This document shows, piece by piece, positions 21,663 to 26,420 of a stretch of DNA of 40,040 bases (position 1 is the stretch's first letter; each line of letters starts with the position of its first letter). The stretch comes from Candidatus Moraniibacteriota bacterium. GTDB taxonomy: Bacteria; Patescibacteriota; Minisyncoccia; Moranbacterales; GWC2-37-73. The translations under genes were made by a program, and so were the position numbers. The notes beneath the pieces were generated by a model. The model saw only the letters and a list, made by a program, of their open reading frames with translations, did not search any database and was not told where the DNA came from. The stretch spans positions 1-40,040 of the forward strand of contig JAQTLF010000007.1 of assembly GCA_028715015.1 (NCBI GenBank). Direction: 5' to 3'.

Positions 21663-22019
21663 TTAATCAGTAGTTATGGACTCCATTGACTTCCACAACA
21701 TAGCACCTATTTCATCGGATAATCCCAAAAGCACATCATACTCACTTTTATCTTCTATAAGACATTCATCAAATGAAAACTTTAATAGATATTTTGATTC
21801 CTGCAATGACCCATAAGAAATTTCCCAAAAATTTTTCTTCACCAAGTTTCTTTTTCTTGCATATCCTTCAATATAATTCAAAACTACTGAAAGTGAAGCT
21901 CTTCTTATTTGAGAAGTAACACCGTATATTTCCTCTCTGGGAAATTTTTTGGTGCATTTATAAACTCCATGAACAAACAAATCCATTTTTAATTTTAGTT
22001 TCTCAGAAAAATCATCCAC
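21663..22019 (-). CDS. Four-helix bundle protein (23S rRNA intervening-sequence protein family)
   Basis: VYKCTKKFPREEIYGVTSQIRRASLSVVLNYIEGYARK..., family-typical. Confidence 0.88.
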   Translation of the reverse strand: MDDFSEKLKLKMDLFVHGVYKCTKKFPREEIYGVTSQIRRASLSVVLNYIEGYARKRNLVKKNFWEISYGSLQESKYLLKFSFDECLIEDKSEYDVLLGLSDEIGAMLWKSMESITTD

Positions 22020-22055
22020 TTTGTTTTTTGTTTATATGTTTATATGTTTGTATGC

Positions 22056-25000
22056 TTATATGACTATATTGATAAGCTTTTCGGGCACGAAAATTATTTT
22101 TCTGATTTCTTTGCCTTCGGTGAAAACTTTCACCTTCTCACTTTCCAAAGCGGTTTCCTTGATCTCATCTTCAGTCACGTCTGCGGCCACCATGAGGCGC
22201 TCGCGAACTTTTCCATTAACCTGCACCACGATTTCAATCTCGCTTTCTTTCATCAATTCCAGATCATGTTGAGGCCAAGACTGCAAAAAGATTGATTGTT
22301 CGTGGCCAAGTTTTTCCCAAATTTCTTCTGCCATATGCGGCGCAAACGGAGCCAAAATCGTGACCAATAATTCATAATCGGCAACCAATATTTTTTCCTC
22401 CTTTTCCATCGCATTGACCAAGATCATCATTTGGGAAATTGCCGTGTTGAATCTGAAGTTTTCAATGTCACTGGTGACTTTCTTGATGGTCTTATGCAGC
22501 AAGGATTTATTTTTTTTGCCTTTACTTATGATCTCTAACAAAGTTTTAGTTCTTGTATCTATTTTTGGATTATTTACAGCCTCACCTAAAGACATAACTA
22601 CATATCCCTTTCCCTCTTTGACTGTTATATTATTAATGTCTAAATAGGTATGCAAATTGAAGAAGCGATCAAATTCTCCGTCAACATAATTTTTGGAGGT
22701 CATATCAGCTATGGTTTCAAGATCATTTTCTTGAACGTCTATTCCCAATTCTTCATTAAGTTCTCTTATTGCACACTGTGACGGTGTCTCGTTTTTTTCT
22801 CTTCCACCTCCCCAAAAAGCTACACTTCCTGGGGCAATTTTTGCAAATTGATCTCTTTCATGAAACAAATAGCTACCATTGCCAACTTCAATAAAAATTC
22901 CAGCTCCACAAATATTATCCGCAGACTGAATTTGGACTTTTTTTCTAAGACCATAAACCTTTTCCAAAAATCTGCGCACACCACTAACACCAGAGGTGCT
23001 CCATGCAACACTCTGTGTGAATGGTCCCATGAACATTTCATACAGACGCATCGCATCAGCTCCGAATTCATCAATGACATCATCAGGATTAATTACATTG
23101 TTCCAGCGTTTGCTCATCTTTCTTCCATCCTCAGCCATGATCAATCCCACGTGTACCAATTTTTTGAATGGCTCAATGGTGGAAACAGCCCCAATATCAA
23201 ACAAAAATTTGTGCCAAAAACGCGCATACAAAAGATGACGTGTGGCATGTTCTGCTCCACCGACATACAAATCAACTGGCATCCATTCTTTTTCAAGTTC
23301 TTTGCCAACCAAGGCACCATTATTTTTTGGATCAATATAGCGCAAATAATACCAAGATGATCCGCCCCACTGCGGCATGGTGTTGGTTTCACGTTTTCCC
23401 GCGCCTCCACATTTCGGACAAGTTGTGTTCACCCATTCGGCAATGTTGGCCAAAGGCGATTCACCAGTTCCAGTCGGTTCATAATTTTCAACCTCAGGCA
23501 AAACCACCGGCAAATCACTTTCTGGAACACCCACGGCTCCACATTTTTCGCAATGGATAATCGGGATTGGTTCTCCCCAATATCTTTGGCGAGAATACAC
23601 CCAGTCGCGCATTTTATAATTCACTTTTCTTTTGCCAATTCCTTCTTTTTCTAACCAATCAGCCATCTTCTCGCGCGCTTCTTGTGAACTCAATCCGCTA
23701 TACTTTTCGGAATTTATTAAGTATCCGTCTTCAACAAAAGATCCCTCGCCAAAAAGTGCATAATCATGAATATCTTTTAATCGCTTGCTCTTAGTTCTTT
23801 CCGCTTCTGATTTTTTATATTTCAGAATCTCAATTGGATTAAATGTTGTAAATTCTATATTTTCAATTGTATTTTTTATTAATTTTTCCACATCATCAAT
23901 ATAACAACCAAAATCAATATGCAAAGACTCTAATTCAGCAACATATAATTCAAACCTCTCATCTGGATTTTTTTTAATAACAAATCCTTTATCTTCAAAA
24001 TATTTCTCCCAAACTTCTAATTTTTCTTTTTCGACTTGCAAATCAATATCGCCATGATTTCTCGTAATCATTCCCATCGCTATATCCAATCCTATTCCTC
24101 CATCAAAAGCAGCGACAAGCTTATTTTCCTTTGCAAATATTGCTATTTCTTTTGCGACTTCAAAAATTTTTCTCGTTTGGTCATTAAGGGCATCATCAAC
24201 AGCAATAGCTGGCTTTATTGCAAGGTCATATTTCTTTGCAAATTCGAAATCCCTTTCGTCATGTGCTGGAACTGCCATGACTGCGCCTGTTCCATAATTT
24301 CCCAAAACATAGTCAGCCACAAAAAGCGGCACCGCCTTTTGCGTAAAAGGATTTATAACCTCAACACCTTCCAATCTTATGCCTGTTTTTTCTTTTTGAA
24401 GTTCTGCTCTTTCAAGATTTGTTTTTTTGTTGGCACTCAAAACATAATCCTCCACTTCTTTCAAGTTTAAAATTTGAGATTTGAGATTTTCTATAACAGG
24501 ATGTTCTGGAGCCACCACGCAATATGTACACCCAAAAATTGTATCGACGCGAGTTGTAAATACTTCTATAAATTCCTGACTATTTGAAATTGGAAATTTT
24601 ATAGTAACTCCCTCACTTCTACCAATCCAATTTCTTTGTTGGTCAGTGATGGAATCTTCCCAATCAAGCTCAGGACTGTCCAAATCATATAGTAATCTGT
24701 CCGCATAGGCAGTCATCTTCAAAACCCATTGCCGCATCGGCTTTTGCTCAACTTCGCTGCCACATCTTTCACACAGACCATTTTCCAAATCCTCATTGGA
24801 AAGAACAGTCTTGCAACTTGGGCACCAATTGACAGGCTCATTTGATTCATAGGCCAAACCTTTTTCAAAAAGTTTCAGAAAAATCCACTGTGTCCATTTG
24901 TAATATTCAGGATCAGTCGTGTTAATTTCCCTGTCCCAATCATAAGTAAAACCAAACGCTTCAAGCTGTTTTTTGAATGTTGCAATATTTTCTTCCACTG

Positions 25001-25289: not shown

Positions 25290-25440
25290 ATATCATTTAA
25301 GCATTTAAGCATTTAAGCATATAAACATAACGACATTTAAATGCATACCCATAATAACATTTAAATGCATAAACACGCCAGAGTAAAAGCAAAAACAAGC
25401 ATTTTTGTTTTAATGCTTGCATGTTTATATGTTTTTATGA
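25288..25440. repeat. Period-8 CATTTAAG repeat hairpin between folD and leuS
   Basis: tcatttaagcatttaagcatttaagcatataaacat ... tgcttgcatgtttatatgtttttatga. Confidence 0.75.
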
Positions 25441-26289: not shown

Positions 26290-26420
26290 ATAATCACATA
26301 ATCATTTAAGCATACAAACACAGAATCATATGGACATGCTAGCATTTAAACATTTAAAAGAGCAAGCTCCATGCATACTTGTTTATATGTTTATATGTTT
26401 ATATGTTTATATGCTTGTAT
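26285..26420. repeat. Period-8 TTTATATG repeat hairpin
   Basis: catataatcacataatcatttaagcatacaaac ... tttatatgtttatatgtttatatgtttatatgcttgtatga. Confidence 0.75.

Follow-up and report, generated by a model that had tools for sequence, protein, structure and literature searches.

Small enzyme domains at an insertion site of leucyl-tRNA synthetase in Patescibacteria: a nucleotidyltransferase insert and its counterparts

The leuS locus and its inserted domains

The window, by which the whole analysed stretch of 40,040 nucleotides from a Candidatus Moraniibacteriota bacterium is meant, carries the gene for leucyl-tRNA synthetase (LeuRS) as a single unbroken open reading frame (Table 1), and no second LeuRS was found in the genome, which is 95.5% complete. 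The encoded protein has the characters of a bacterial LeuRS: it reaches 1038 bits with the NCBIfam equivalog TIGR00396 leuS_bact (cut-off 548), and its HIGH and KMSKS motifs of class I (here HVGH and KMSK) as well as the threonines and aspartates of the editing site (T245, T246, D344, D347) are invariant among 28 homologues. With these residues kept, charging and editing should be intact. In the surroundings of the gene, short AT-rich repeats of the TTTATATG / CATTTAAG type lie in the gaps around leuS and its neighbours (22000-22060, 25290-25440 and 26290-26420), and an open reading frame for a four-helix bundle (S23-like) is found at 21663-22019.

Table 1: Features of the leuS gene in the window.
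Feature	Position	Strand	Residues	Basis or remark
leuS, leucyl-tRNA synthetase, 1077 aa	22056..25289	minus		Single copy, two inserted enzyme domains
CP1 editing domain, N-terminal part, ending at socket flank FAKKYDLAIKPAIAVDD	24192..24635	minus	219-366	PF13603 match 219-370
Site-2 insert, ANT(2'')/Lnu-like minimal nucleotidyltransferase domain within CP1 editing domain	23739..24191	minus	367-517	PF10706 E=8.7e-11; Foldseek
Catalytic signature GGIGLDIAMGMITRNHGDID (GG ... R-x-H-x-D-x-D) with metal-binding D414 and D416	24042..24101	minus	397-416	Invariant positions
HIDFG strand with third catalytic carboxylate D459	23907..23921	minus		H/E-[IV]-D-[FI]-G pattern
Downstream socket flank FVEDGYLINS, LeuRS resumes	23709..23738	minus	518-527	Alignment to 1h3n and relatives
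Site-4 insert, MutT-like Nudix, between KMSKS region and anticodon-binding domain	22503..22937	minus	785-929	PF00293

Within the CP1 editing domain the LeuRS sequence breaks after ...IKPAIAVDD and picks up again at FVEDGYLINS, the part between being an in-frame insert. LeuRS of T. thermophilus (1h3n) aligns up to residue 362 and again from residue 375, so that the insert takes the place of about 12 residues of the CP1 loop, here termed site 2. A nucleotidyltransferase-like insertion in the editing region had been claimed in a preliminary description of this DNA, and the reading frame, the PF10706 match and the alignment with 1h3n show it to be real; the length of about 150 residues given there was also right, while its end at residue 516 fell one residue short. 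The higher AT content suspected for the insert was borne out as well, with a GC content of 30.2% versus 38.5-43.3% in the LeuRS segments and a GC3 of 0.20 versus 0.38 for LeuRS, which is lower than in all 151-codon stretches of the LeuRS core examined (0.26-0.41).

An independent genome (L071 in G112) has at the corresponding LeuRS position an NTase of this subtype with 58% identity, so the insert is no accident of assembly, and the doubt whether the insertion would recur in independent sequence is thereby removed. An assembly chimera or a pseudogene was accordingly rejected, given the open frame and the independent relatives with the same insert. Inteins lie in frame in essential genes, recur at particular sites, are patchily distributed and move horizontally, and the LeuRS inserts are like them in every one of these respects. 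That the domain is an intein or intron removed before the protein works, or that it does not exist at all, is nevertheless barely credible, although in-frame insertion into an essential, conserved gene is intein-like: the HN[CST] motif of intein C-termini is absent from all 84 inserts checked, Pfam reports no Hint domain in the window LeuRS, no Rfam intron was found, and the relative in G112 repeats both subtype and site. Unlike inteins, the LeuRS inserts possess active-site residues of enzymes and lack splicing motifs and a homing endonuclease; neither a transposase nor homing machinery was detected in the NTase insert.

Family, motif and fold of the nucleotidyltransferase

The profile PF10706, which covers nucleotidyltransferases of the ANT(2'')/Lnu type, matches the insert with 42.6 bits (E=8.7e-11) against a cut-off of 21, which excludes chance as a source of the assignment. 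The G-G pair, the arginine and both aspartates of the DxD in the catalytic signature are invariant in nine inserted NTases (that of the window and eight others) and are also kept in free-standing relatives. All seven LeuRS inserts of the ANT type show the pattern around the third aspartate, and G397-G398, D414, D416 and D459 can all be aligned with free-standing NTases. Two inserted domains deviate: the related NTase of L075, located in PheRS beta, lacks the third aspartate, and a divergent type called NTase-B (L008) is without the canonical motif.

For the structural comparison an AF2 model of the insert was built, with relatives that included sequences from viral contigs (some of the 12 free-standing NTases). 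Its quality is moderate (mean pLDDT 60.6), with core residues from about 11 to 90 near 80 and the C-terminal third below 50; in the full-length AF2 model of the window LeuRS the core is fine and both inserts are not modelled confidently. In Foldseek, ANT(2'')-Ia, LnuA and CCA-adding enzymes rank first for the insert model, the best matches being 5kqj (E=1.9e-4) and 4fo1 (E=2.2e-4) with a TM of about 0.4. The fold search proposed in the preliminary description thus returned a nucleotidyltransferase fold for the core, the C-terminal part being poorly modelled, and the same proteins, LnuA and ANT(2'')-Ia, came first, weakly, in a phmmer search of the PDB. Profile, motif and fold agree with the ANT/Lin-type assignment (PF10706-like, with GG...R-x-H-x-D-x-D) made beforehand, and together they support a minimal nucleotidyltransferase of the ANT/Lnu kind as the predicted identity of the insert.

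The insert shares with ANT(2'')-Ia and LnuA (PDB 4xje, 5kqj, 4fo1) the signature, the third aspartate and the N-terminal fold; it differs in being embedded in LeuRS, in a divergent C-terminal half and in scores far below the cut-offs for resistance enzymes. The NCBIfam models for Lnu and ANT(2'') recognise it with E-values between 1e-7 and 1e-3, an order of magnitude under those cut-offs in score (31.6 versus 325 bits for Lnu(D), 19.3 versus 350 for ANT(2'')-Ia). These values, together with a tblastn search of plasmid and phage collections that gave no match, make it very improbable that the domain serves on LeuRS to inactivate drugs or toxins, possibly inhibitors of the aminoacyl-nucleotide type which hit synthetases, even though its nearest named families are antibiotic nucleotidyltransferases and an NCBI model (NF040702) describes an IleRS that includes an acetyltransferase domain. 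The single viral match of the insert (L214) proved to be a chance match.

Occupants, hosts and history of the insertion sites

In 56 relatives the LeuRS frame measures between about 800 and 1,214 amino acids, the differences being due to insertions at a few positions. In 129 LeuRS of the Patescibacteria type, a set which the search biased toward filled LeuRS and which is not an even sample, site 2 holds a Nudix domain in 53, an ANT-like NTase in seven, NTase-B in one, a serine hydrolase (PF06821) in one and other inserts in two, while 65 are without a large insert; where no enzyme is present, the loop is short and amounts to some 30 residues. An even sample of the phylum with 380 genomes contained about 50 with a LeuRS-type Nudix. 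Serine hydrolases, a PD-(D/E)XK domain and a DUF559 domain were found at site 1 (near residue 240), serine hydrolases and one insert without a family label at site 3 (near 584), and the Nudix of the window at site 4 (near 785). Part of the inserts were labelled by Pfam, the others by alignment to Pfam-labelled families or by motif, and most of the genomes compared are metagenome assemblies. An ASCH label for the site-3 insert of L081 was dropped for want of a Pfam match, and an apparently split LeuRS in G021 turned out to be masked sequence with no split gene. A flank such as KQ[SV][VI]AP precedes the site in about half of the filled and in 4/65 of the empty LeuRS, and is thus frequent, not universal.

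The largest protein encountered, a LeuRS of 1,795 amino acids (L253; G133:C23, reading frame from about base 677), carries at least four inserted enzymes. Pfam supports HAD, Ham1, Nudix and NTase domains, to which a further long insert is added; HAD and Ham1 lie at site 1, the Nudix at site 2, the long, Ham1-like insert at site 3 and the NTase further on. Several other observations were made at these loops. A related module of about 45 residues occupies site 2 in L020 and L050, the LeuRS cores of which are only 54% identical. Nuclease-like domains of the PD-(D/E)XK_3 (GxxExxY) and DUF559 families are placed at site 1 beside repeat-like linkers in L131, L132 and L246, and could have a bearing on how inserts move. 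The peptides LDSRLRGND, SREGGNP, AERTQ and NREQGTRN in LeuRS loops near insertion sites (L245, L056, L131, L045) resemble translation products of intergenic or palindromic repeats. Four records titled Clostridia (L103, L104, L105, L134), the titles being taken as given, contain LeuRS with a site-2 Nudix.

The second insert of the window LeuRS matches PF00293 with 42.8 bits (E=6.5e-11, cut-off 21.1) and has an intact Nudix box, GX5EX7REUXEEXGU. By eye it resembles the site-2 Nudix of L098. The preliminary description had seen in the combination of nucleotide transfer and nucleotide hydrolysis a feature of this one synthetase, and both domains are indeed present; a conserved two-part device they do not form, since the usual site-2 occupant in relatives is itself a Nudix and since a Nudix at site 4 is known, among the LeuRS examined, from the window alone.

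The hosts of these domains were determined by searches with the domains as queries, blind to the host protein. Across 131 genomes of the order all nine strong matches of the two NTase subtypes (E < 1e-46, scores which are inflated because the profile was built from those nine) lie in long frames of synthetases, seven in LeuRS and two in PheRS beta. After these come matches no better than 1e-12, which belong to other NTases; most of them stand alone or form part of short fusions, and the divergent NTase-B inserted in a LeuRS is also among them. No stand-alone copies fall between the two classes in these 131 genomes. Among the best 30 Nudix matches phylum-wide, 29 are in LeuRS (27 by the flanking editing motif, L193 and L211 by reading frame) and one stands alone. 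Serine hydrolases of the order are hosted by LeuRS, ValRS or IleRS in 16 of 17 cases, the other host being a glycosyltransferase; IleRS, ValRS and glycosyltransferase were named from their own sequence. An inserted hydrolase tends to go with loss of the stand-alone gene, though as a trend only (1/14 versus 38/110, p=0.06, uncorrected for phylogeny).

Individual hosts deserve mention. The serine hydrolase is found in ValRS at the same place in two genomes (L242, L247) and in IleRS in L243 and L248, the latter, a frame of 1,408 amino acids, also with a histidine-phosphatase-like insert; in one genome (G048) LeuRS, ValRS, IleRS and PheRS beta all bear inserts. A UvrC from outside the order (L171 in G176) contains an inserted NTase and a glycosyltransferase (L244 in G046) an inserted serine hydrolase, and judged by these two sequences insertion is not strictly confined to synthetases. 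Outside synthetases, ANT-type NTases were also seen fused to a serine hydrolase (L179, 355-aa frame) and to an acetyltransferase-like domain (L064, 444-aa frame).

The strong bias toward synthetases in host-blind searches could be taken to mean that Nudix, Ham1, HAD, hydrolase and NTase domains are located there because their substrates arise there, the NTase acting on substrates or products of LeuRS (the tRNA 3' end, leucyl-adenylate or aminoacyl esters) and the others on by-products such as Ap4A. Nudix, Ham1 and NTase are nucleotide-handling enzymes by family, and CCA-adding enzymes are among the Foldseek matches of the NTase. Such a functional coupling is nonetheless rather unlikely, for at a single site unrelated chemistries stand in for one another in closely related LeuRS, roughly every second LeuRS in the sample has no inserted enzyme, a UvrC and a glycosyltransferase serve as hosts too, and none of the Pfam profiles for tRNA nucleotidyltransferases (CCA-adding) matches the window LeuRS up to E=1.

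The history of the inserts is decoupled from that of LeuRS. On a FastTree phylogeny of the 129 LeuRS cores with local support, the states of site 2 require at least 33 changes, and the seven ANT-type NTases alone require six, each of which well-supported branches make unavoidable. The NTase insert is missing from the three LeuRS closest to that of the window (81-83% core identity). In one genus (g7), the cores of six LeuRS are 86-93% identical, and site 2 contains NTase-A in one, NTase-B in another, mutually unrelated Nudix domains (30% identical) in two and no enzyme in the remaining two; L007 with an NTase and the empty L016 share 93% of their core. The window and L071 are 58% identical in the NTase and 56% in the LeuRS core, whereas the window and L007 are 79% identical in the core and 26% in the NTase. 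For the 52 Nudix inserts, insert identity and core identity are barely correlated (Mantel r=0.12), and in 10/52 the nearest neighbour by insert is also the nearest by core. One recent exchange can be seen: between L102 and L150 the insert has a dS of 0.02, the remaining gene 0.24-0.36, and nearly identical tracts alternate with diverged ones across the insert and its flanks, a pattern expected from homologous recombination between leuS alleles. In an attempt at dN/dS, synonymous sites proved saturated between the inserted NTase copies. The core tree also separates two deeply different LeuRS types within the genus of the window (L036-L038 versus L001, L017, L020), pointing to whole-gene replacement by transfer.

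Rapid gain, loss and exchange, families that are almost exclusively inserts, and short in-frame repeat-like linkers beside some inserts, which resemble Rickettsia palindromic elements (PMC10969869), are what a selfish or neutral domain might leave, hitch-hiking in an essential gene at a socket which tolerates it and with no gain for the host. Selection has nevertheless held the active sites: of the 52 site-2 Nudix inserts, 52, 52 and 51 retain the respective catalytic glutamates and 49 the arginine, though many pairs are only 25-50% identical, and in the hydrolase inserts G-H-S and the catalytic histidine are invariant in the aligned set. As the NTase insert moreover has no machinery for its own transposition or homing, we regard a purely selfish or neutral domain as unlikely. 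The retention of catalytic residues in Nudix and hydrolase inserts argues for active enzymes and not for spacers; the inserts are probably active, in the case of the NTase on the basis of its conserved motif. The fact that close relatives have exchanged one chemistry for another at this loop speaks against a role of the insert in leucylation.

A probable socket for exchangeable enzymes and its meaning

We consider it fairly probable that LeuRS of the window functions as a synthetase and that its CP1 loop at site 2 is an insertion-tolerant socket for small enzymes, themselves presumably active and repeatedly exchanged. Site 2 and at least three other sockets of LeuRS, as well as positions in ValRS, IleRS and PheRS beta, would gain, lose and exchange whole small enzyme domains. 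The inserted NTase would fold independently on its loop and remain in the mature protein, where it may be active and move NMP from an NTP to some acceptor. LeuRS would serve as a constitutively expressed, never-lost platform that carries the NTase, with leucylation and editing unaltered, and spread would proceed mainly by homologous recombination between leuS alleles, new captures being occasional. A further reading, which we put forward tentatively and hold to be possible, sees in the inserts non-splicing mobile domains, the subfamilies of which, an ANT-like NTase and a lineage of Nudix, occur almost only as synthetase inserts of Patescibacteria, move between leuS alleles and between synthetases such as LeuRS and PheRS beta, keep their catalytic residues and accumulate; if true, accumulation would proceed until a single LeuRS carries four or five enzymes.

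The classical editing insertions, CP1 of LeuRS, IleRS and ValRS and INS of ProRS, are ancient, vertically inherited and tied to proofreading. The inserts described here are likewise nested within the catalytic architecture, but their occupants differ among near-identical LeuRS. The IleRS with an N-acetyltransferase (NF040702 ileS_w_GNAT) also unites a class I synthetase with an unrelated small enzyme in one polypeptide, a likeness drawn irrespective of domain position; it is one defined architecture, whereas the LeuRS site has exchanging occupants. The palindromic elements of Rickettsia, in-frame repeats of about 150 bp that encode short peptides in unrelated metabolic genes (PMC10969869), are similarly compatible with the host protein, but are no folded enzymes and are not found mainly in synthetases. 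Domain insertion and fused synthetases are thus known kinds. In the literature searched, subscription papers and preprints lying outside its scope, no paper contained 'leucyl-tRNA synthetase' together with 'Parcubacteria', and what was accessible of the texts on synthetase insertions in CPR bacteria, on Nudix insertions and on domain insertion held no description of such an exchange; as far as these texts reach, an essential synthetase in which unrelated enzymes rapidly replace one another at a fixed socket seems not to have been reported before.

The domains of synthetases, and those for editing in particular, are as a rule regarded as evolving slowly and by vertical descent. In the present case an essential enzyme of this class swaps enzyme domains at one loop between cores about 90% identical, and the common type of insert keeps its active-site residues. 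This amounts to a natural experiment in domain insertion and points out loops of LeuRS, ValRS, IleRS and PheRS beta that can take up foreign enzymes. It is also a warning that annotation pipelines may miss or misname genes bearing such inserts, and it suggests how bacteria with tiny genomes may add functions without new genes.
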